Below the pieces are notes generated by a model. That model made no database searches, was not told the DNA's origin, and was given only the letters and a program-made list of their open reading frames with translations. A stretch of DNA of 38,725 nucleotides. It comes from Acidobacteriota bacterium (GTDB taxonomy: Bacteria > Acidobacteriota > Terriglobia > Terriglobales > Acidobacteriaceae). The translations under genes were made by a program, and so were the position numbers. The stretch's first letter is position 1. Each line of letters starts with the position of its first letter. This document shows positions 23,539-35,977 of the stretch, in pieces. The stretch spans positions 1 through 38,725 of the forward strand of contig QIAH01000352.1 of the NCBI GenBank assembly GCA_003225465.1. The letters are read 5' to 3'.

Positions 23539-23843
23539 ACCGCTTCCTGCCTTTCGAATTGTTTCCATTTGCTTCGGGATGCCGAGACCCGCCCGGCAAG
23601 ACGCCGAAAACAGCCGGGGCCTGCCAAAACGCGTCTGCCACATACGAGACTCCCATTCTGGGCTTCCCGGCCAAAAAGGCTGGCGATGAAGTTCAATCTT
23701 GACATCGCTCGCAATCGAAAGTAAAAGTAAGAGTTCGTAATATACCATCAGAGCCAGGCTGTTCCTCTGTTTTCTTTGTGAAAGCGCAAGCCCGCGGCCG
23801 AGGCATGAATTTCGAAACTTGCCGCCTTGCAAAGGAGCGTGCC
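23539..23843. other. Divergent control region
   Basis: Separates the amidohydrolase/glycosidase operon (minus) from the TonB-dependent receptor gene (plus). It contains a promoter candidate for the receptor (separate entry) and a CCGGCC-AAAAA-GGCTGG hairpin at 23668-23684. No gene is seen. Confidence 0.5.
23699..23727 (+). promoter_or_regulatory. Candidate sigma-70 promoter of the TonB-dependent receptor
   Basis: A perfect TTGACA (23699-23704), a 17-base spacer and TAAAAG (23722-23727). This predicts a start near 23734 and a leader of about 110 bases. Confidence 0.45.
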
Positions 23844-26800
23844 ATGCAAGCATCGCGATTGTTCCACTTCATTTCACTCTTGCTGTGCGTTCTCGCCGGC
23901 AGCTTGTGCTTTGCGCAGAAAGATAGCGGCAGCATCGTGGGCACGGTGACCGATCCCAGCGGCGCGGTGGTCAGCGGGGCTCGGGTCACGGTCACCGATA
24001 TCGAGCGGGGTCAGAACTTTCATACTACGACGAGTGCCTCCGGAGAATATGTGGCCAGTCCGCTGCGCATCGGCCGCTATACGGTTACCGTCGAGATGGA
24101 AGGCTTCAAGAGGGCCGTCTCGGAAATGATCGTACTCGATGTCCAACAGCGGGCAGCTGTGAACGTGAAGCTAGAGGTGGGCCGCCAGAACGAACAAGTC
24201 CTGGTAACCGGAGTGACGCCTCTGTTGGAGACCGAGACCAGCGAACTGGGACAAGTCGTCGACAGCCAGCGCGCAGCAACCCTCCCCCTGAATGGTCGCA
24301 ACTTTGCGCAATTGGCCCTGCTGACCGCAGGCACCTCCCCCAGCGAACCGGGCGCGCGCGATGAGAACAGCTTTGGATTCAGTTCGAATGGCGCGCGCTC
24401 GCTGCAAAATAATTTCTTGCTCGACGGCGTCGATAACAACTCGAACCTACCCGACTTGCTGAACGAAACCAACTATGTCATTCAACCGCCAATCGAAGCC
24501 CTGCAGGAATTCAAGGTACAAACCAACGCCTACAGCGCGGAATTTGGTCGCGGCAACGGTGCCATCGTCAATGCCGTCATCAAGTCCGGCACAAACCAGT
24601 GGCATGGCAGTGCGTGGGAATTCTTGCGGAACGAAAGTCTGGATGCTAAGAACTATTTCGACGATCCCACTATACCCACACCCTCATTCAAGCAAAACCA
24701 GTTTGGATTCACGTTTGGCGGCGCGATCGTGAAGAACCGCACCTTCTTCTTCGTGGATTACGAGGGCTATCGGCTGCGCCAGGCGCAGACCCAGTCGGTG
24801 CTACTGCCCAGCCCTGCGGAGATTGGCGGAGACTTCAGCGAAATCCTGAGCAACACTCCGGCGCTGGACCCGAATGGCAATCCGGCTCTGGACTGCAACG
24901 GCCACCCCACGTTCTCGGGCGAAATCTTTGATACCCGCCTGACCCAGCAGAATGCGAGTTTCGCTACCGGCTTGTGCGGCGTGCCATTCGGATACGACGC
25001 CAGCGGGAATCCCCTGAACATCATCCCGGCGACGCCGGCGGCGGCCGGGGCCGGCTCGCTCGATCCTCTCGCGTTGCGGCTGGCTGCGCTCTATCCGCCC
25101 CAGAACGTGGCTAATAACCCTGCACTCAATTACACCGCCAATCCGGTGCGCTCTGAAAACCGCAACAACTTCGATATCCGAGTCGATCAGAAATACACCG
25201 AAAAAGACTACGGTTTCTTTCGCTTCAGCTACGAAAGCCAGCCCAGTTCGATTCCAGGCACCTTTCCGGGTCTAGCCGATGGGGGAGGCTTTTTCAGCGG
25301 CATTGAAGACAATTCCTATCGCAGCTTCGCGACCAGCTGGACCCACCTGTTCCGTCCCACGCTGGTGAACGAATTCCGCCTCGGCTACAACCGCATCAAT
25401 TCCCACCGCTTCAATTTTTTCTACAATCAAAACATCTCGGATCAGCTCGGCTTCCCCGGCGTTCCCTTTGGCCCCGATATCGGCGGCCTGCCGCAGTTGA
25501 CGTTTGGAGACGGCAGTGCGCCCACCCTGGGCAGCCCCACATTCCTGCCGTCGCGAGAGCTTCAGAATACTTATGTCTTGAACGAGAACCTCACGGTCGT
25601 AAAGGGGCGCCAGACTCTGAAGTTCGGTACCGAAATCCGCCGCGAAGAATTCACGATCTTTCAGCCCGCAGCTCCCCGGGGCACTCTGGACTTCAGCACC
25701 TCGATGACTGACAATCCCGCGGCGCCGGGAAGCGGAGGATCGGGCTTCGCCTCCTTCCTCGCGGGACTCACCGATGGCGGCAGCATCAACAATCTGCACA
25801 ATGTCGATTACTTCCGCCCCATTTATGCATTCTTCGCGCAGGATGACATCAAGCTCACCCCCAAGCTCACGCTCAACCTCGGGGTACGTTATGAACTGTT
25901 CACGACCGTGAAAGAGCGATTCAATGCGCAGGGCACTTTCGACCTGAATGATCCCGCCAATCCCACGGTGATTGTGCCGAAGGGACAAACCGCGCAGCTC
26001 ACACCGACCCTGGCCAGCCAGATCACTCTGAGTCCCACAGCCAGCCGCGGCCTGATCTCACCGGACAAGAACAATTTCGCGCCCCGCATTGGCATGGCAT
26101 ATCAACTGCAAGACAAGACCGTACTACGCGCCGGATATGGAATTTTCTACGGCGGCCAGGAAAATGGGCCATACTCCAACCCCAGCCCCGGATTCAACCC
26201 GCCGTTCTTCGTAACCCAGTCGTTCAACAGTCCCTGTTCGGCTTCTTCTGCGAACCCGAGTCAGCTGGATTGCTCGATTCCGGGAATTCCATCACTGCAA
26301 AATGGTTTTCCGGCGAATTCGCTCTCCGATCCGAACACCCCTTTTCTGTATTCACTCGATCCAAAGCTGGTCACGCCCTACATGCAGCAATGGCATCTTT
26401 CGATTGAGCGTGAGTTACCGGCTGACAGCGTGCTCGAAATCACCTATGCCGGGTCGAAAGGGAACAAACTGTTTGTGTTCCTCAACGGCAACCAGGCTGC
26501 GCCTACACCCGATCCCACCGCGGACCTCGCCCCACGCCGGCCCGTGCCGCTCATCGACAATGGGATTGACTGGTTCCGCTCGATCGGCGCGTCGAGTTAC
26601 AACTCGTTGCAGATGCATTACGAGAAGCGGTTCGGGCACGGGTTGCAGTTTCAAGCCTCCTACACCTGGGCGCATTCCATCGACAACGCTTCCAATGCGA
26701 ACCTCGGCCCCACGCAGAACAACAGCGACTTTCGCTATTTCAGGGATCCGCAAGCGGAGTACGGGGACTCCGACTTCGGCGTGCGGCACAGGTTCGTCGC

Positions 26801-27359
26801 CAGCTACATCTACGAATTACCGTTCGGGCGCGGAAAGAAATTTATGGGCCAAGCCGGCGGCTTCGCGAACCAGTTGATCGGAGGATGGCAGATCGCCGGA
26901 ATTACCAGCGTATCGAGCGGAAACTGGTTTACGGTGCTCGATTCCAATGGAAACTTTGCGAACTCCGACGGCGGCGTGGGTGGCGTCTCGCAGCGTCCGG
27001 ATTTCGGGCTCACGCCCGGATGCGTGCCGGCCACGGGAAAGCTAGTGTTTTTCAATACCTGCTTGTACCACGATCCGGCGCTGGGATCGTTTGGCAACGT
27101 CGGGCGCAACACTCTGCAGGGGCCTGGCTACCAGATCTGGGACTTCACGCTCGGCAAGCATTTCCCCGTGACTGAGCGTTTCAAGCTGGAGTTCCGCGCG
27201 GACTTCTTCAACATCTTCAATCATCCCAATTTTCTGGTGGCGACCTCAGGGCCGCAGAACTCGAATAACAGCACCGTTCTCGGAACCGCGCAATTCGGTT
27301 TCCTGACCGCGGCTCGCGATCCTCGGCTGGTGCAGCTTGCATTGAAGCTGAGTTTCTGA
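23844..27359 (+). CDS. Oar-type TonB-dependent outer-membrane receptor
   Basis: A 1171-residue outer-membrane protein. Signal peptide at 1-24 (LLLCVLAGSLCFAQ), then a carboxypeptidase-regulatory-like Ig domain (about 27-110: GSIVGTVTDPSGAVVSGARV, GRYTVTVEMEGF). The plug follows, with LPLNGRNFAQLALLTAG and FLLDGVDNN, then a long barrel with many aromatic strands ending VQLALKLSF. This is the Oar/CarbopepD_reg-TBDR architecture very abundant in Acidobacteriota, used for uptake of large or glycan-derived ligands. AAGGAG lies six bases before ATG 23844; the frame also opens at GTG 23778. It is divergent from a glycosidase and an amidohydrolase, suggesting it imports their substrate or product. 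No TonB box was identified. Confidence 0.93.
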   Translation: MQASRLFHFISLLLCVLAGSLCFAQKDSGSIVGTVTDPSGAVVSGARVTVTDIERGQNFHTTTSASGEYVASPLRIGRYTVTVEMEGFKRAVSEMIVLDVQQRAAVNVKLEVGRQNEQVLVTGVTPLLETETSELGQVVDSQRAATLPLNGRNFAQLALLTAGTSPSEPGARDENSFGFSSNGARSLQNNFLLDGVDNNSNLPDLLNETNYVIQPPIEALQEFKVQTNAYSAEFGRGNGAIVNAVIKSGTNQWHGSAWEFLRNESLDAKNYFDDPTIPTPSFKQNQFGFTFGGAIVKNRTFFFVDYEGYRLRQAQTQSVLLPSPAEIGGDFSEILSNTPALDPNGNPALDCNGHPTFSGEIFDTRLTQQNASFATGLCGVPFGYDASGNPLNIIPATPAAAGAGSLDPLALRLAALYPPQNVANNPALNYTANPVRSENRNNFDIRVDQKYTEKDYGFFRFSYESQPSSIPGTFPGLADGGGFFSGIEDNSYRSFATSWTHLFRPTLVNEFRLGYNRINSHRFNFFYNQNISDQLGFPGVPFGPDIGGLPQLTFGDGSAPTLGSPTFLPSRELQNTYVLNENLTVVKGRQTLKFGTEIRREEFTIFQPAAPRGTLDFSTSMTDNPAAPGSGGSGFASFLAGLTDGGSINNLHNVDYFRPIYAFFAQDDIKLTPKLTLNLGVRYELFTTVKERFNAQGTFDLNDPANPTVIVPKGQTAQLTPTLASQITLSPTASRGLISPDKNNFAPRIGMAYQLQDKTVLRAGYGIFYGGQENGPYSNPSPGFNPPFFVTQSFNSPCSASSANPSQLDCSIPGIPSLQNGFPANSLSDPNTPFLYSLDPKLVTPYMQQWHLSIERELPADSVLEITYAGSKGNKLFVFLNGNQAAPTPDPTADLAPRRPVPLIDNGIDWFRSIGASSYNSLQMHYEKRFGHGLQFQASYTWAHSIDNASNANLGPTQNNSDFRYFRDPQAEYGDSDFGVRHRFVASYIYELPFGRGKKFMGQAGGFANQLIGGWQIAGITSVSSGNWFTVLDSNGNFANSDGGVGGVSQRPDFGLTPGCVPATGKLVFFNTCLYHDPALGSFGNVGRNTLQGPGYQIWDFTLGKHFPVTERFKLEFRADFFNIFNHPNFLVATSGPQNSNNSTVLGTAQFGFLTAARDPRLVQLALKLSF

Positions 27360-27408: not shown

Positions 27409-28971
27409 TTACCCCACTTGCCACACCGTATCGAGCACGGTCCCGTCCACCCATTTCACCACCGCGACTGGACGATCGCCGAGTTTGGGACGGGCAGGTC
27501 GACCTCCGCAGATTTGCTCCACTTCCGTCTTGATGTCCTGAATCGGCCGGATGGGGAGCTTCGAACCTTTGACAGCATCGAGCAGATCCTTGCGCAATGG
27601 GTTGATAGCGATGCCTCGTTCAGTGACGACGACGTCGATCATTTCGCCAGGGCCGGTAAGAGTAGTGACTTCATCGACGATCACTGGGATGCGGTCGCGG
27701 AAGGACGGCAGCCCGAGAATGCTGCACCCGGAGAACAGGCAATTCTGCCATCCGCCGATGCCGTGCAACAGACGGCCGTCGGAGTGAGTAACCACGTTGG
27801 CGTTGAAATGGACGTCGACTTCAGTCGCGCCCAGCACGACCGCATCGACCATCGAGGCAAAATTCCCCTTGCTGTGGTAGTTGTAAGACGTGAACGGCGA
27901 GGTCGCGACGTGGCGCAGATCGTTGGCGATCGACTTCACACCGTCCAGGTCGAACGTCTGGCCATCGAGGATGTAATCGGTCAGGCCTTCCCGCAACAAA
28001 TCGACCAAGTATTTTGTCGAACCGCCCCGCACGAATCGCGCTTTCACACCATCTTCTTTCATCATGCGGCGGAGGTAGTCGACGAAGGCGAGCGCGATGC
28101 CTCCGGCTCCCGCCTGAAACGAAAATCCATTCTTCATGATCCCTGCATCGCGCAGAAAGCGAGCCACGAACTCCGCAATGCGCAGGCGGTCGGGCGAACG
28201 CGTGATCTGCGTGGTGCCGGAAACAATTTTCGCGGGATCGCCGATGCAATCGACCTCGACCACATAATCGACGTTGTTACCCTGAATCTGCCAGGGCACG
28301 CATGGGAACGGAACGAGATTGTCCGTCACGACAATCACGTGGTCGGCATAGGTGGAGTCAGCGAGCGCGAACCCGAGCGAACCGCAGGCAGACTTCCCAT
28401 GTGAGCCGTCGGCATTGCCGAAAGCGTCCGCCGTGGGAGCGGCAATCACCGCAATGTCAATGTGTACTTCGCCATCCTGGATCGCCTGCCAGCGCCCGCC
28501 ATGAGACCTCAGCACGCCCATGCCGCGCATCTTGCCCTGCGTGCAGTAGTCACCCAGGGGCCCGTTCATCGAGCCTTCGATGTGGTGGATGACCCCTTTC
28601 TCCATCAGGCCAATGGCATCCTTCTGTGAAGGAAACGAGGCGCTCGGAAACCAGAGCAGGTCTTTCACGCCCATCTTCGCGGCAGCTTCCAGCATCATGA
28701 GCGCGACCCTGTCGCCGTCGCGCAAGTGGTGATGGTTCGAAATAACCATCCCATCCCGAAGGCCACATTTGCGGAGGGCAGTTTCGAGGTCAGGCAGACG
28801 CTTGTCGCCGTTCTCGGGATAATCCTTGCTCGAGCGAACCGGCGGAGCCTGCTTGCGCCCGCGCGGCTGGTACTTGCCCACTCCCAGATAGGGGATCTGC
28901 GGCTTGCCGTTCACCATGGTGGGCACGCGCCGCTGGGCGGCATTGTGGGCGAGTTCGACGCGTTCGGTCAT
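27409..28971 (-). CDS. citF: Citrate lyase alpha subunit (citrate-ACP transferase)
   Basis: A 520-residue protein matching CitF along its length (usual length about 510). In the citrate lyase complex CitF swaps the acetyl group on the acyl carrier for citrate, giving citryl-ACP for CitE to cleave. Family segments visible: ETALRKCGLRDGMVISNHHH, HHIEGSMNGPLGDY, DAFGNADGSHGKSACGSLG and FSFQAGAGGIAL, the last two typical of CoA-transferase-like folds. It is the last gene of the six-gene minus-strand cluster and lies 78 bases after the CitD-CitE fusion. It ends 49 bases from the convergent receptor gene, with no obvious terminator. Cytoplasmic. Confidence 0.94.
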   Translation of the reverse strand: MTERVELAHNAAQRRVPTMVNGKPQIPYLGVGKYQPRGRKQAPPVRSSKDYPENGDKRLPDLETALRKCGLRDGMVISNHHHLRDGDRVALMMLEAAAKMGVKDLLWFPSASFPSQKDAIGLMEKGVIHHIEGSMNGPLGDYCTQGKMRGMGVLRSHGGRWQAIQDGEVHIDIAVIAAPTADAFGNADGSHGKSACGSLGFALADSTYADHVIVVTDNLVPFPCVPWQIQGNNVDYVVEVDCIGDPAKIVSGTTQITRSPDRLRIAEFVARFLRDAGIMKNGFSFQAGAGGIALAFVDYLRRMMKEDGVKARFVRGGSTKYLVDLLREGLTDYILDGQTFDLDGVKSIANDLRHVATSPFTSYNYHSKGNFASMVDAVVLGATEVDVHFNANVVTHSDGRLLHGIGGWQNCLFSGCSILGLPSFRDRIPVIVDEVTTLTGPGEMIDVVVTERGIAINPLRKDLLDAVKGSKLPIRPIQDIKTEVEQICGGRPARPKLGDRPVAVVKWVDGTVLDTVWQVG

Positions 28972-29049: not shown

Positions 29050-30246
29050 TTACGCCAGACCCATCGACTTCGCGCGCGCCACTAACTTCAAGGCGCGCTG
29101 GACCACGGGAGGATCGATCATCTTCGATCCCAAACTCACCACCGCGACGCCGCGCTGCTGGGCGTCCTCGAACGCGCTCACAATCCTTTGCGCCTTTTCG
29201 ATCTCGGCGGCCGAAGGCGCGAACGCCGCATGAATCACCGGGATCTGCGCGGGATGGATGCAGCCCATGCCTTCGAAGCCGAGCGCGCGCGCGGCTTCTG
29301 CCCACTGCTTCAGGCCTTCCATGTCGCCGACGTCGCTGTACACAGAATCAATCGCCTGCACACCGGCTGCGCGCGCAGCATTGACCAGGCGCGTGCGCCC
29401 ATATTGCGACTCACGGCCTTCGGCAGTTTTCACAACGCCTAAGTCGGCGGTGTAGTCTTCGAGACCGATCGTCAGGGCAACGACATTTTCCGTGGCGGCC
29501 GCGATGGGAGCGGCGCTCTCGATTCCCTGCCCCGATTCGAGAATCGGCATCAGCCAGATCGGGCGATTGATCTGGTGTCGCACCTTCAACTCCGCAATCA
29601 TGTTATCGACCTGCGTGACTTGGCCGGGATGCTCGACCTTGGGGATGAGGACGACGTCGGGCGCTTCCGGAATGATTTCGGCGAGGTCTTCGAGGCCGAG
29701 AGGCAGTTGGTTGATGCGCACCATGCGCTCGCAGGCGCCAAAGCTCACAGCACGCAGAGTATTGCGAACGAGAGTGCGGGCCGCATCTTTCTCCGCCGGA
29801 TGGACCGAATCCTCAAGGTCGAGAATGATGGCGTCGGGCCCATGGAGGCCAGCGTTGATTGCGTACTTGGGCTCGGTGCCGGGAAGATAGAGGCGCGAGC
29901 GGCGCAGGCGATCTATGGCCGAAGGTGCGGGCGGCGCGATTTTCTCCGGCAGAGCTTTGTGGCTGTTGGCGAGCCCGGCCCGGCGGACGGCCGTCTCGAT
30001 GCGGGCCGCAATCACGTAGGGCAGTGCACCTTCATCGTGGATGGAAACTTTCGCGTTCTTTACGCCCAGCGTTTCGAGCACGTGACGAGCCTGCGTAAGA
30101 ATCGCCTCTCCATAATAAGGGCCGACGCGGGATTCGAGGCCGAGTTCGATGCCGCCCGAGTCGCGAGGTTCGATGGCGACATGGAGGTCGGAGCGGACAT
30201 CTTTTCCCGAATGTCCAGCCTCGGCGGATTTTCTATCGGCGGTCAT
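29050..30246 (-). CDS. Citrate lyase acyl carrier (CitD) - beta subunit (CitE) fusion
   Basis: A 398-residue fusion. Residues 1-90 match CitD: LHVAIEPRDSGGIELGLES, a YYGEAI segment and SIHDEGALPYVIAARIE, which align with the known carrier protein. Residues 113-398 match CitE: RSRLYLPGTEPKYA, ILDLEDSV (Mg site), MVRINQ, LIPKVE, GLEDYTADLGV and GCIHPAQIP. A proline-containing linker (91-112) joins them. CitE cleaves citryl-ACP to oxaloacetate and acetyl-ACP; fusing the carrier replaces the separate citD gene of the usual operon. The carrier serine normally lies in an ESSD/ESGD motif; here the aligned site is R18-S19-D20, so S19 is the likely but unproven attachment residue. ATG 30246 follows GGGGAG. 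Because citE-like lyases also cleave other acyl-CoA thioesters, the substrate may not be citrate. Confidence 0.88.
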   Translation of the reverse strand: MTADRKSAEAGHSGKDVRSDLHVAIEPRDSGGIELGLESRVGPYYGEAILTQARHVLETLGVKNAKVSIHDEGALPYVIAARIETAVRRAGLANSHKALPEKIAPPAPSAIDRLRRSRLYLPGTEPKYAINAGLHGPDAIILDLEDSVHPAEKDAARTLVRNTLRAVSFGACERMVRINQLPLGLEDLAEIIPEAPDVVLIPKVEHPGQVTQVDNMIAELKVRHQINRPIWLMPILESGQGIESAAPIAAATENVVALTIGLEDYTADLGVVKTAEGRESQYGRTRLVNAARAAGVQAIDSVYSDVGDMEGLKQWAEAARALGFEGMGCIHPAQIPVIHAAFAPSAAEIEKAQRIVSAFEDAQQRGVAVVSLGSKMIDPPVVQRALKLVARAKSMGLA

Positions 30247-30338
30247 AAAAAAACTGCTCCCCAAACGACACTCAGGACATGAAGGTCAACCTATGTTAAG
30301 GCAATTGCGCTCTGAGTCTTCGTGTCCACTCTGGTTCC

Positions 30339-31535
30339 TCAGAGCTTCGCCAGGATGGCATCGGTCATTTGCACCGTGGAAGCCGCGCCCTGGCTGATCG
30401 ACTTTGCTCCGCCGGAGATGCGCATCATGTCGTAGGTGCGGACTTTGCCTTCTTTCACAACCTCGGCAACGGCGTTGCGAATACGTTCGGCCTTATCGTT
30501 TTCGCCTACGTGCTCGACCATCATGGCCGCGGAAAGAATCATGGCAATCGGATTCACAATGGGTGGATTCAACTCGGCATACTTGGGGGCGGAACCGTGC
30601 GTGGGCTCGAAGACGGCAACCGTGTCGCCGATGTTGCCCGAGGCGGCGAAGCCGAGTCCGCCAACCAGCCCGGCGAATGCGTCCGACAAAATGTCGCCGA
30701 AAAGGTTCGAGGCTACGATCACGTTGTAGTCTTCGGGATTCTTGTTGAGCCACATCAGCTGCGCGTCGATGTTGGTGGACCAGAGCTGGATCTCGGGATA
30801 ATTCTTCTTTACTTCCTTGGCGGTCTCTTCCATCATGCCGGAAGTTTCGCGCACCACGTTGGGTTTCTCGCAGATGGTTACGCCCTTGAATTTCTTCTTC
30901 TTCGCGTATTCGAACGCGGCGGTGACGATGCGGCGGGCAGCCGGGCGCGTGATGATCCGTACGCTCACGGCGAGGTCCTGCCCGGGAACGTTGGCGAAAG
31001 CTTTGAACTTGGCATGAGAGTTCAGGGCAGTGCGCACGATCTCGGGCGGGTTCGTCCACTCGATGCCGGCATACATGCCTTCCGTATTCTGGCGGAACAC
31101 TGTGGTGTTGATGTGCGGCTCCTCGAAGCCGCCGTCGGTGCGTTTGCGAATGTAGTTCAGCGGGTTCCCGGTGAAGCCGACGCAGGGACGCATGCAGATG
31201 TCGAGATTGAATTTCTGTCGCATGGTCACGATGGGCGAGTAATAGACGTAGCCTTTGCCTTGCAGTTCGGGCTTGAGTTCCGCCTGCGCGGCCTTGTTTG
31301 GTTTGGAGGTGATGGCGCCGAACAGACCCAGCTCGTGCTTTTTCAGAAGCTCAATCGTGCGCTCGGGCAGCGCGTTGCCGTTGTTACACCAGCAGTCCCA
31401 GCCAATGTCGGCATGAACATAATCGGCGTCAAAGCCGACCGCCTTGAGCACACGCAGTGACTCGGGCAGAACCTGGTTGCCGATGCCGTCGCCCGGCATC
31501 GTGACTACGGTATGTTTGGACATGAGAGAGCGCAT
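30339..31535 (-). CDS. Isocitrate/isopropylmalate-type dehydrogenase
   Basis: A 398-residue beta-decarboxylating dehydrogenase. Family motifs: GDGIGN (15-20), the substrate arginine segment SPIVTMRQ (100-107) and MRP (115-117), NTEGMYAGIE (150-159), SVRIITRPAARRI, KPNV with NVVRETSGMM, and the metal-site signature NLFGDILSD with D281 and D285. The nucleotide region EPTHGSAPKYA looks NAD-type. It oxidises a 2-hydroxy acid with loss of CO2: isocitrate to 2-oxoglutarate is most likely, but isopropylmalate- or homoisocitrate-type substrates cannot be excluded. An in-frame ATG at 31523 (MSKHT) is an alternative start; the AAGGAG is poorly spaced for both. It lies between the aconitase-like gene and the CitD-CitE fusion. 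Confidence 0.9.
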   Translation of the reverse strand: MRSLMSKHTVVTMPGDGIGNQVLPESLRVLKAVGFDADYVHADIGWDCWCNNGNALPERTIELLKKHELGLFGAITSKPNKAAQAELKPELQGKGYVYYSPIVTMRQKFNLDICMRPCVGFTGNPLNYIRKRTDGGFEEPHINTTVFRQNTEGMYAGIEWTNPPEIVRTALNSHAKFKAFANVPGQDLAVSVRIITRPAARRIVTAAFEYAKKKKFKGVTICEKPNVVRETSGMMEETAKEVKKNYPEIQLWSTNIDAQLMWLNKNPEDYNVIVASNLFGDILSDAFAGLVGGLGFAASGNIGDTVAVFEPTHGSAPKYAELNPPIVNPIAMILSAAMMVEHVGENDKAERIRNAVAEVVKEGKVRTYDMMRISGGAKSISQGAASTVQMTDAILAKL

Positions 31536-31708: not shown

Positions 31709-33661
31709 TCACGAGTTCAGTCCCAATCTCTTCGCGACCAGATTCTCCACTCCTTCGGCAATGACCAGCGATTGGGGCACGCTTCCCAGCGGCGGGAACG
31801 CAAATTTCTCTCCCTGCCACGTGATTGCGCTCGACGTGAAATCGATGTCGATCTCGTCGCCCGGAATGATCGTCTTCTCTTTGGCCGCAATTTCTTTTGC
31901 GAACTGCTCGCGCAGGCGCTTCACCAACTCCGGAACCTCCACGCACAGAAAGCCGTTGTTATACGCATTTCGCAGGTAAGTCTGAGAAAAGCTGGCAGCA
32001 ATCACTAACGGAATGCCTTTCGCTTTCAGGCACGTGACCGCCTGTTCCCGGCTGGAACCGGTGCCGAAATTGAAGCCTCCGACAATTACATCGCCCGCGC
32101 TAGTGCGCGCCCCGAATTGCGGATCGTAGTTTTCCATGACGACTTTCGCCATCATCTCTTTCGTCATGTCGTCGCGGTAGGTGTAGTCCTTGCCATAAAT
32201 GGCGTCGGTATTGATGTTGTCCTGCGGCATGAACACCAGGCGCCCTTTTACACGCGCTGGAAAGCCTTTGAGGATTTCGACTTTTTCGACGCTTCCACCA
32301 CGGTTCGCCGCAAGTTCCGTATAGCGGCGCTCGGGATGGCGGTCGGCGAATTCGTGCGGCCCGCGGATGTATCCGGCCACGGCTGACGCCGCCACTACTT
32401 CGGGACTGGCGAGATAGCACTGCGCGTCGCGCGATCCCATGCGTCCCTTGAAATTGCGGTTGGTGGCGGAAATGCCAACTTCGCCTTTCTCCAGCAGGCC
32501 TACGCCGAGCCCAATGCACGGTCCGCATCCGGCGGGCAGCGGACGTGCGCCCGCGTCCATGAGCGTCTGCCAGGTGCCACGCCTTTCGGCTTCTTCCTGC
32601 ACCCATTTGCTGGCTGCGCCCAAATAGAACTGCACACTCTGCGCGACCTTTTTCCCTTTCAGAACTCTTGCCGCGGCGTCCAAGTCTTCGAGCCGCGAGT
32701 TCACGCAGGAGACGAGATAGGCCTTATGAATCGCCACTTTCTTGCGCTCCATCTCGGCCAGCGATTGCATCACCTGCACCGTGTCGGGCCCGGAGACGTG
32801 AGGGGTGACCTGCGCGAGGTCGAGCGTGATCTTCGCAGCGTAGGCGGCGTGGGCATCAGGGTGCGGCGAATTCTTGGTCCAGCTCTCGAGGTCGGCCTCG
32901 GTGAAGCGCTCGATGCCTTGTGCTTTCAACCGCTGGTGCACTCCGCGCAAGTAAGCGATCGTGACTTCGTCGACCGGAAACCATCCCACCAGCGGTCCCC
33001 ACTCAGTGGTCATGTTTGAGATCGACAGGCGCGCGTCCATGGAGAGCGAGGCCACACCGGGTCCGGTGAATTCAATAGCGGCGTTCAGGACCTCGTCATG
33101 GTTGTAGAGACCGCAGAGCGTGATGATCACATCTTTGCCGGTCGCTCCTTCGGGCAACTTGCCTTCGAGGCGCACTTCAATCGAACGCGGGATCTGCCAC
33201 CAGAATTCGCCCGTGGCCCAAACGGCAGCCGCATCCGTGCGCACGATAGGTGTGCCGATCGCGCCGAGCGCACCGTACATGTTCGAGTGCGAGTCGGACG
33301 CCACAACGAAAGACCCGGGCACGACGTAACCGCGCTCGACCATGATCTGGTGCCCGATGCCAGAACCGGCGGGATAGAAGTCGACGCCGTGCTCTTTGGC
33401 GAAGGCTTCGATAGCGCGATATTTTTTCTGATTCGATTCGTCCTGGTTCTGGATATCGTGGTCGAGCGCAAAGACGAGCTGTTTCGGATCATGAATTTTC
33501 TTAGCGCCAATGCCTTTAAACTTGCTCATCACGGCGGACGTATTGTCGTGGGTCATAACGCGATGCGGGCGAATAGAGAGAAAGTCTCCCGCGCGCAAAG
33601 GCCGCGATGGGCCCTCGGCCATGTGGCTCTGAGCAATTTTTTCAACAACAGTTTGAGGCAT
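31709..33661 (-). CDS. Aconitase-family hydratase, fused large and small domains
   Basis: A 650-residue protein that combines the [4Fe-4S] domain and the swivel domain (separate LeuC/LeuD in most bacteria) in one chain, as in aconitase and fungal homoaconitase. Iron-sulfur ligands: C319 (LVSCVNSR), C379 and C382 (PAGCGPC). The usual CTNS is CVNS here. Other motifs: ASDSHSNMYG (121-130), DNINTDAIYG (481-490) and the active-site GTGSSRE (533-539). It should isomerise a 2-hydroxy tricarboxylate through the dehydrated acid: citrate/isocitrate, 2-methylcitrate or a homologue. It ends GLNS. ATG 33661 is the start. Its place between a PrpD-family gene and an isocitrate-type dehydrogenase fits a stepwise pathway. 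Confidence 0.92.
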   Translation of the reverse strand: MPQTVVEKIAQSHMAEGPSRPLRAGDFLSIRPHRVMTHDNTSAVMSKFKGIGAKKIHDPKQLVFALDHDIQNQDESNQKKYRAIEAFAKEHGVDFYPAGSGIGHQIMVERGYVVPGSFVVASDSHSNMYGALGAIGTPIVRTDAAAVWATGEFWWQIPRSIEVRLEGKLPEGATGKDVIITLCGLYNHDEVLNAAIEFTGPGVASLSMDARLSISNMTTEWGPLVGWFPVDEVTIAYLRGVHQRLKAQGIERFTEADLESWTKNSPHPDAHAAYAAKITLDLAQVTPHVSGPDTVQVMQSLAEMERKKVAIHKAYLVSCVNSRLEDLDAAARVLKGKKVAQSVQFYLGAASKWVQEEAERRGTWQTLMDAGARPLPAGCGPCIGLGVGLLEKGEVGISATNRNFKGRMGSRDAQCYLASPEVVAASAVAGYIRGPHEFADRHPERRYTELAANRGGSVEKVEILKGFPARVKGRLVFMPQDNINTDAIYGKDYTYRDDMTKEMMAKVVMENYDPQFGARTSAGDVIVGGFNFGTGSSREQAVTCLKAKGIPLVIAASFSQTYLRNAYNNGFLCVEVPELVKRLREQFAKEIAAKEKTIIPGDEIDIDFTSSAITWQGEKFAFPPLGSVPQSLVIAEGVENLVAKRLGLNS

Positions 33662-33767: not shown

Positions 33768-35231
33768 TCATCTGCGCTGTTGCGTTCTTGTTCTGGCCTT
33801 AGCACCGGCCTTTGCGACTAAAGGCTTTCGTGCTCGTACATCCGCCTTCATCAGCGCCATCAGCTTCGAAACCGAGCTGATCTTCTCCAAACCCCAAATC
33901 GCATCTTTCAATTTCTTTTGGGCTTGAGGAGACAAAACGCCCTCCGCCAGCGCCGAGAACTTCTCTTCGATTTCCTGATCGGTGAGCGGATTGCGCGGAT
34001 CGCCCTTGGGATAATCGAGTTGCTCGGTGAAGCTCTGGCCCTCGGTAGTTGTGATGGTCACGATCACCCGCTGCAGTGCCGGAAACACCTTCTCAATTTC
34101 CGGATCGGCGACGACTTCCACCTTCTTCAGTTGCGCCCGAATGACAGGATCCATGATCTTCGCCATCTCGAATTGCGCGGGCGTGACCTGGCGATCGACC
34201 AGGGCCGCCGCGATCACATACGGCAGCGAGTGGTCGGCAGTTTCTTTGGTGTGCGGATCGTACTTGCTCGGGTCGGAGAGGATATCGGCAGCGCGAGCCA
34301 GCGAACGAATTTGAATTTTCGCGACCTGGTCCGGATGCAGGTCGTTCTTCTTCACGAGATCCAGCACGGCGGAAATTGGTGCGTGCGTGAGCGCTTCTGT
34401 CGGGAAGAACTTCATGCCGCACTGCGTGATGCGCCAGGAATCCCCCAGCCCGTCAGTAAGCAGGTTGAGCTTCCACTCGGGCCCGAAGCAATGCACCAAC
34501 CCCTCTTTGCCGTCGATTACATGCTCCGGTCCGGTATAGCCCTTTTCCGCCAGCAGCGCGGCGAACATGCCGCTCTGCGTGGCCATGGGATCGACCGTGT
34601 TCTTCATCATGGTAAGTTTTCCGGCGGTCACCGCGCCCAGGGTACAGTGACGGCTGGCGGAGATGCCGACGGCGTGCTGGATCTGCTCCCATGACAAACG
34701 TAAGGCCCGGCCCGCCACGAAAGGAGAGACGAAGGCGGTAAGCGTCGCATGATGCCAGCCACGCTCGCGAATGCCCGGAAAGGCGGCCTCGCAGAGCCGC
34801 ATTTCGAACTCGTGTCCCAGCACGAAGCCGACCATGAGTTCCTTGCCGCCCGACTTCGCGCGCTCGCAACCGGCCATCGCTGCGGGAAATATGTCCGACG
34901 GATGCGACGGGTCTTGCTTCCAATAGATGTCGTTGTAGTCCATGCAACGAATCATCAGCGCATTGGCAAGAGAAGCGGACACGGGATCCACCTTCTTGCC
35001 AGTTCCAATCACGGTGGCCGGACCCCGCCCGGCGACTTCGTCCAGCACCTGGAGCGCGATCTTTACGTCGTGCTGTTGATATCCGCCGAGCGCGCAGCCT
35101 ACGGAATCGAGCAGAAAGCGCTTGGCCTGATAAACCGCCTCCTGCGAGAGGTGCGCGTAATCGAGAGCGGCGGCCCAGCGGGCCATTTTGGCGGTGATGG
35201 TCTCTTTGAGGGTTGCGGCAGTGGCGGACAA
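33768..35231 (-). CDS. MmgE/PrpD family dehydratase
   Basis: A 487-residue protein of the 2-methylcitrate / iminodisuccinate dehydratase fold. Family landmarks: the N-terminal all-alpha domain with AKRFLLDSVGCALGG, SLANALMIRCMDYND, HPSDIFPAAMA (the HPSD/HPGD motif), HEFEMRLCEA, WHHATLT (150s) and ASRHCTLGAVTAGK. The lid domain lies about 290-410 (KKFFPTEALTHAP-like MKFFPTEALTHAP). The family dehydrates citrate-like acids to aconitate-type acids without an iron-sulfur cluster. The C-terminal 30 residues are basic and low-complexity (KAGAKARTRTQQRR) and look like an extension. It is the second gene of the cluster, 188 bases after the HD-domain gene; substrate inferred only from context. Confidence 0.9.
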   Translation of the reverse strand: MSATAATLKETITAKMARWAAALDYAHLSQEAVYQAKRFLLDSVGCALGGYQQHDVKIALQVLDEVAGRGPATVIGTGKKVDPVSASLANALMIRCMDYNDIYWKQDPSHPSDIFPAAMAGCERAKSGGKELMVGFVLGHEFEMRLCEAAFPGIRERGWHHATLTAFVSPFVAGRALRLSWEQIQHAVGISASRHCTLGAVTAGKLTMMKNTVDPMATQSGMFAALLAEKGYTGPEHVIDGKEGLVHCFGPEWKLNLLTDGLGDSWRITQCGMKFFPTEALTHAPISAVLDLVKKNDLHPDQVAKIQIRSLARAADILSDPSKYDPHTKETADHSLPYVIAAALVDRQVTPAQFEMAKIMDPVIRAQLKKVEVVADPEIEKVFPALQRVIVTITTTEGQSFTEQLDYPKGDPRNPLTDQEIEEKFSALAEGVLSPQAQKKLKDAIWGLEKISSVSKLMALMKADVRARKPLVAKAGAKARTRTQQRR

Positions 35232-35248: not shown

Positions 35249-35360
35249 GTCGTTGGTCCTTGGTCGTTGGTCCTTGGTCGTTGGTCCTTGGTCGTTGGTC
35301 CTTGGTCGTTGGTCCTTGGTCGTCGGTCTTGGTTGTCGGTCTTGGTCGTCCGTCCTTTGT
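35249..35360 (+). repeat. 14-base tandem repeat GTCGTTGGTCCTTG
   Basis: Five perfect, contiguous copies (35249-35318) are followed by two 13-base variants (GTCGTCGGTCTTG, GTTGTCGGTCTTG) and a frayed third. It lies between the HD-domain gene and the PrpD-family gene. Copies are head to tail without spacers, so it is a minisatellite rather than CRISPR. A degenerate relative is at 660-716. Confidence 0.92.
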
Positions 35361-35368
35361 CGGTGGAG

Positions 35369-35419: not shown

Positions 35420-35977
35420 CTATCGCTTCTTAACGTTCTTCGGATTCTTGAACGGCAAGTACGCCATGAAGTCGGCGTGATGGACGATGTAAGCCTCGGT
35501 AGTGCGTTTCACCTGGTCCCCTTCCGCTGCATGGGCCGCGATAATGTGGCAGACTTCGTCAGGAACTCCACACTCGAGGGCCAACGCTACTCCTGTGAAG
35601 GGGTGCCGGAGAGCCTCGCCGCGCTCGCTTTGGCGTGCCTGACCATCCGGTCCAATTTCGTACTCCAGAAGCTTGCCGACGTCAGCAAGGATCGCACCCG
35701 CAATCACGGTATCGACGTTCACCGGCAACGCGCGCCCCATGAATTCCTTCATGGCCTCGGCGCTCTTGCGTGCAACGTGGACAACGCAGCGCTTGTGCTC
35801 CATAAACGTGATCGGGCAGTGCGGAACCAGCAGCGTGAACGGAATGTAATTGAGATCGTCGGGCTTCAGCGGACTGCGTTCGAGGGCCTTGGTCCAGGTC
35901 ATGGCCACTTGCTCGCGCAATTTGGCGTCCTGGATCCACTGAATTTCGGGCCAGAGTTTATTGACCGCCTCGCGCAT
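35420..35977 (-). CDS. HD-domain-like protein with altered HD dyad
   Basis: A 185-residue cytoplasmic all-alpha protein of the HD phosphohydrolase fold. The expected positions are H67 (VVHVARKSAE), the dyad, H125 (RHPFTG), H149 (AAHAAEGD) and the final HHAD (166-169). The dyad itself reads A98-D99 in AILADVGKLLEYE, where an HD protein would have HD. The other metal ligands are kept, so it may be a one-metal enzyme or a non-catalytic relative. GGGAGG sits close to the ATG at 35977, a strong start. It is the first gene of the tricarboxylate cluster, so it may regulate or tune that pathway. Function unknown. Confidence 0.75.
   Translation of the reverse strand: MREAVNKLWPEIQWIQDAKLREQVAMTWTKALERSPLKPDDLNYIPFTLLVPHCPITFMEHKRCVVHVARKSAEAMKEFMGRALPVNVDTVIAGAILADVGKLLEYEIGPDGQARQSERGEALRHPFTGVALALECGVPDEVCHIIAAHAAEGDQVKRTTEAYIVHHADFMAYLPFKNPKNVKKR

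Follow-up and report, generated by a model that had tools for sequence, protein, structure and literature searches.

A covalent CoA-like arm is the defining feature of citrate lyase, a textbook enzyme. In the canonical system CitG makes the precursor of the prosthetic group, CitX attaches it to the carrier protein CitD, and the ligase CitC acetylates the carrier thiol. How, then, might a citrate-lyase-like enzyme work in which the carrier is fused to the lyase subunit CitE and has an arginine where the acceptor serine belongs? Such a protein is encoded in a contig of an Acidobacteriota bacterium (QIAH01000352.1); the whole stretch of DNA that we analyzed, 38,725 nucleotides, is called the window below. 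A sequence-only reading of this DNA had proposed that the serine next to the arginine is a new attachment site, and that the fused carrier ties the covalent thioester to its cleavage domain.

The gene, here citDE, lies at 29050 to 30246 on the reverse strand, with its ATG at 30246 and its stop at 29050, and encodes a protein of 398 amino acids. The open reading frame spans 29050 to 30264 on the same strand, with an alternative in-frame TTG upstream at 30264; a purine-rich sequence, GGGGAGCAG, stands just 5' of the ATG. Translation from this ATG, from which the motif numbering V17-R18-S19-D20 is counted, begins MTADRKSAEAGHSGKDVRSDLHV. Pfam matches within this one reading frame bore out the CitD-CitE fusion that had been claimed: PF06857 (CitD/MdcC-type ACP) covers residues 17-90 (69 bits, cut-off 25.1) and PF03328 (HpcH/HpaI, CitE) residues 116-332 (178 bits). 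Both scores against the NCBIfam equivalogs fell below cut-off (citE, 247 bits, cut-off 443; citD, 63.1 bits, cut-off 63.5).

Residues 1-98 (29953 to 30246, reverse strand) make up the carrier-derived domain. When the PDB was searched with its sequence, we obtained chance matches and a weak match to MdcC (E 1.4 and 0.26), so a comparison of structures was needed. The whole CitDE chain was modeled by AlphaFold2 with a mean pLDDT of 96, and the top structural match of the modeled carrier domain alone was MdcC (5vit_C, Z 9.6, rmsd 2.3, 83 residues). The CitD/MdcC carrier fold, a beta-sheet and two helices with the acceptor loop, is present in the N-terminal domain of CitDE. Residues 113-398 (29053 to 29910, reverse strand) form a TIM-barrel lyase domain of the CitE type (HpcH/HpaI) with the conserved residues R177, E237, and D264. 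Since the pTM for the whole chain was 0.93, a value that covers CitDE alone and bears on neither CitF nor CoA, the two domains are predicted to be held in a fixed arrangement, although AlphaFold could dock a carrier domain that really swings.

Among 297 genomes of the window's phylum, PF06857 was found in 40: 36 with a CitD-CitE fusion, three with a separate CitD, and one with MdcC. In a wider scan, restricted to a single genome for each species, 571 relatives of our alignment were found, and we kept the best 80. By their titles, these best 80 of 571 relatives belong to groups such as Acidobacteria, Bacteroidetes, Ignavibacteria/Chlorobi, Planctomycetes, Gemmatimonadota, Chloroflexi, Krumholzibacteria, Eisenbacteria, Cloacimonadota, Calditrichota, Zixibacteria, Marinimicrobia, WOR-3, KSB1, and Desulfuromusa. 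An assembly artefact is ruled out, as the fusion recurs in more than 100 genomes. CitDE of the RSD type is a conserved family across many phyla and not a local oddity. We found no description of CitDE fusions in the literature searched, a body of work with most subscription journals outside it.

We then compared 106 fusions with ten canonical CitD and CitE pairs in one alignment. R18 fell on the acceptor serine of the ten canonical CitDs (Ser14 in Klebsiella numbering) and S19 on the Ser or Gly that follows it, so the numbering and coordinates of the motif had been read correctly: R18-S19-D20, at 30187 to 30195 on the reverse strand, takes the place of the acceptor motif [E/Q]-S-[S/G]-D. Position 18 was Ser in all ten canonical CitDs and Arg in 99 of the 106 fusions, the remaining seven having Lys, His, Asn, Ser, or Gly. 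It was one of eight positions in the whole chain, and no more, that separated the fusions from the canonical proteins under the criterion used. Asp occupied position 20 in 106 of 106 fusions. At position 19 we found Ser in 102 fusions, Ala in three (L056 from genome G082 of the window's phylum, L125, and L183), and Asn in one (L175); L056 and L125 lie in complete six-gene operons. In the 79 loci with a readable N-terminus among the best 80 of 571 relatives, the motif was RSD in 70, KSD in three, RAD in two, and HSD, NND, SSD, and GSD in one each. The SSD and GSD motifs belong to two Desulfuromusa fusions (L180 and L182), both without CitX in the genome, and it is possible that they are intermediates or reversions.

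Conservation of the RSD triplet in fusions had been suggested as support for S19 as the attachment site. The triplet is indeed conserved, but this does not discriminate S19 as a site because position 19 is also Ser in nine of the ten canonical CitDs (Gly in the other), where it is not the acceptor. Close to the motif, no hydroxyl other than that of S19 is conserved. S19 is not the sole acceptor nearby as had been stated: S13 is also close, although it is not conserved in the alignment of 106 fusions.

Family searches detected neither CitX nor CitG, a family that includes MdcB, in the window's genome. Both were also missing from every one of the 36 fusion genomes in the phylum sample, and both were present in each of its three genomes with a QSSD or ESSD CitD. 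The MdcC genome of the same sample had a member of the CitG family without CitX, as expected. Outside the phylum, CitX and CitG were missing from 49 of 50 fusion genomes, which brings the total to 85 of 86. In the exception (G323), CitXG is encoded inside a canonical operon that is complete and has a separate ESSD CitD, CitE, and CitF. The association of CitX and CitG with carrier type gave a Fisher p of 4e-7 with genomes taken as independent, which they are not, and kinship ignored. CitC gave no match in the window's genome; true CitC, at 212-224 bits, occurred in the phylum sample in the three canonical genomes only, and matches of 20-29 bits in other fusion genomes were discounted against those scores. 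Most of the fusion genomes are MAGs, and gaps may explain some of the absences, but hardly nearly all of 86. A separate citD used in place of the fused domain had been named as a further possibility; the window's genome encodes no second PF06857 protein, and this single match rules out a second carrier elsewhere in it. Genome G323, of the Chlorobi type, offers a natural comparison, as it holds the canonical operon with fused CitX-CitG and elsewhere a carrier-altered CitDE (L197, G323:C198).

The catalytic residues of the lyase domain are intact. R177, E237, and D264 were invariant in the 106 fusions and in canonical CitE and, matched by motif context, are the probable counterparts of the catalytic Arg, Glu, and Asp described in malyl-CoA lyases (PMC3832036). 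Characterized CitE-like enzymes use free acyl-CoA, the phosphates of which are bound by Arg, Lys, or His (PMC3832036). Position 200 was Arg in every canonical CitE and hydrophobic in the fusions, as it is in the solved free-CoA relatives. Together with the loss of the carrier machinery, this residue suggests that CitDE uses free acyl-CoA.

The transferase subunit is encoded next door. A CitF-type protein of 520 amino acids (27409 to 28971, reverse strand; PF04223, 427 bits; TIGR01584, 474 bits, cut-off 501) follows citDE directly, and citF adjoins citDE downstream in nearly all loci whose contig extends far enough. The CitF proteins of fusion loci form a clade of their own (support 1.0) with 37-43% identity to canonical CitF, and about 25 positions are fixed in this clade and differ in canonical CitF, for example GGWQN versus GGHSD. 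Convergent with citF, at 23778 to 27359 on the forward strand, is a gene for an outer membrane protein of 1193 amino acids that resembles carboxypeptidase-regulatory and TonB-dependent-receptor proteins, as named from its translation.

We consider it probable that CitF and CitDE form a citrate-lyase-like complex that has given up the covalent carrier and works with free CoA thioesters. CitDE would then be a lyase subunit without the covalent 2'-(5''-phosphoribosyl)-3'-dephospho-CoA arm. CitF would transfer CoA from acetyl-CoA to a citrate-type acid. The acyl-CoA so formed would be cleaved by the CitE domain, with acetyl-CoA and a 2-oxo acid as products. The net reaction, in what we infer to be its direction, would convert the citrate-type acid to acetate and a 2-oxo acid with free CoA as a catalyst. 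The former carrier domain would be a rigid element by which CitF is docked to the lyase domain, and R18, in place of the acceptor serine, may grip the adenosine-phosphate end of free CoA. In malonate decarboxylase, MdcC bridges the complex and links transferase and decarboxylase, its acceptor loop faces the transferase active site, and the ribose 2'-OH of the modeled arm lies about 10 A from Ser25, the residue that bears the prosthetic group (PMC5534430). By analogy, free CoA bound in CitF could be held at its phosphates by an arginine at the tip of this loop. Two observations count against parts of this proposal: Ser at position 19 in 102 of 106 fusions is above expectation for a neutral position under the free-CoA model, and the seven fusions with a residue other than Arg at position 18 speak against R18 as a CoA clamp.

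The strong conservation of S19, the sole conserved hydroxyl near the motif, and an intact carrier fold could instead mean that the prosthetic group sits on S19, placed there by an unrecognized attachment system, and that the fused carrier feeds the thioester to its own lyase domain. An unrecognized attachment enzyme, or a different cofactor, may indeed be beyond the reach of family searches. However, S19 is an unlikely site on the sequences compared here because CitX and CitG are missing, because Ala or Asn replaces Ser in four fusions, two of the three Ala cases being in complete operons, and because Ser19 of canonical carriers is not an acceptor. Since most canonical carriers also have Ser at position 19, its conservation needs no new role. 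Neither the new attachment site nor the covalent thioester tied to the cleavage domain, as proposed in the sequence-only reading, is therefore supported, and we regard covalent attachment at S19 as very improbable. It could also be speculated that the carrier domain is a dead remnant, with CitE alone acting as a CoA lyase and CitF belonging to another pathway; CitE-like enzymes without a carrier do work in other organisms. This we think improbable, as the domain was intact in 79 of the 79 readable loci among the best 80 of 571 relatives, across phyla, D20, D71, A74, and R82 were invariant in 106 of 106 fusions, and nearly all loci with enough contig have CitF as a neighbor.

A further possibility concerns the substrate, and it can hold together with the free-CoA explanation, of which it is a substrate variant: the substrate of CitF and the carrier-free CitE may be homocitrate or a different homologue of citrate, with PrpD, homoaconitase, and homoisocitrate dehydrogenase as further enzymes of the pathway. 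This would lead from 2-oxoadipate to acetate and 2-oxoglutarate, or the reverse. The operon of the window and of its nearer relatives reads HD - PrpD - homoaconitase-like - Iso_dh - CitDE - CitF, all on the reverse strand. Family scans and the conserved neighborhood identified an MmgE/PrpD-family dehydratase-like protein (33768 to 35231) and an isocitrate/homoisocitrate dehydrogenase-like protein (Iso_dh, 30339 to 31535); the conserved neighborhood also marks the first gene, for an HD-domain metal-dependent phosphohydrolase-like protein of 185 amino acids (35420 to 35977). Between the PrpD and Iso_dh genes, a fused aconitase (31709 to 33661) matched the homoaconitase model TIGR00139 with 766 bits (cut-off 530). 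In other loci, two aconitase-type enzymes replace PrpD and the fused aconitase. The PrpD and HD genes are separated by a gap that holds a tandem array (35249 to 35366) of 8.6 copies of the 14-base unit GTCGTTGGTCCTTG, with 90% matches.

Two dehydratases and a beta-decarboxylating dehydrogenase fit citrate no better than they fit a homologue of it such as homocitrate. Homoisocitrate dehydrogenase models outscored isocitrate ones for Iso_dh, further aconitases, Iso_dh proteins, and citrate synthase are encoded outside the operon in the window's genome, and the CitF positions fixed differently from canonical CitF (GGW-N versus GGH-D) also favor a homologue. On the other hand, all dehydrogenase equivalogs scored below cut-off, and many members elsewhere, among the best 80 of 571 relatives, have no aconitase neighbors. 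In some Bacteroidales and relatives (L140, L141, L145, L162, L174, L185, and L186), genes for a carboxyltransferase and an OadB-like sodium-pump subunit lie upstream of citDE-citF, and these would fit decarboxylation of oxaloacetate or another acid; the substrate may therefore differ between lineages. The carboxyltransferase, named from the sequences, is of the methylmalonyl-CoA decarboxylase type. CitDEF as the sole source of citrate is not general, as 30 of 36 genomes tested, the window's included, have citrate synthase. The Melioribacter genome paper reported no ATP-citrate lyase and left open another enzyme. The substrate of the operon may be citrate or a homologue of it; a homologue as the substrate of the carrier-free enzymes is a serious possibility that we would not assume. 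Possibly the HD - PrpD - homoaconitase-like - Iso_dh operon is an undescribed citrate-homologue pathway common to several phyla. More doubtful is the combined proposal of a widely distributed, CoA-dependent, ATP-independent class of lyases in which the Arg-bearing former carrier is a non-covalent domain for both CoA holding and docking, the substrate is a citrate homologue, and the pathway is an undescribed one of the homoaconitase-like and homoisocitrate-dehydrogenase-like type.

The free-CoA complex that we favor can be set beside several known systems. The ATP-independent citrate lyase of Klebsiella, E. coli, and lactic acid bacteria (CitD-CitE-CitF; EC 4.1.3.6) has homologous parts in one gene cluster, with identities of 34-43% for the carrier domain, 34-43% for CitE, and 37-43% for CitF. 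Both systems keep the catalytic residues of CitE and have the CitF gene beside CitE. In CitDE, however, the carrier is fused to CitE, Arg replaces the acceptor Ser, and CitX, CitG, and CitC are missing; the two also fall in separate clades (CitF support 1.0), and the citE and citF equivalog cut-offs are not reached. MdcC, the malonate decarboxylase carrier (PDB 5vit), shares its fold with the CitDE domain and has its acceptor loop equally placed, but the position of its Ser25 is Arg in CitDE, which lacks the attachment enzymes. Malyl-CoA lyase, CLYBL, M. tuberculosis CitE, and RipC have the TIM-barrel and the Arg/Glu/Asp set in common with CitDE and, like it, are hydrophobic at position 200, in contrast to the Arg of canonical CitE. 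Unlike CitDE, these free-CoA lyases stand alone, without a carrier domain or a CitF partner. In Hydrogenobacter, citryl-CoA synthetase and citryl-CoA lyase cleave citrate via free citryl-CoA. That route shares the free citryl-CoA of our proposal but is ATP-dependent and relies on the citrate synthase family and not on CitE and CitF.

These data suggest that the labels citrate lyase acyl carrier protein and citrate fermentation may be wrong for such genes. CitDE would provide a step for the cleavage of citrate or homocitrate in phyla of which few members have been cultured. A carrier that is kept, in many phyla, while both the serine and the enzymes needed for attachment are lost would show how an enzyme with a swinging arm can return to the use of free CoA.
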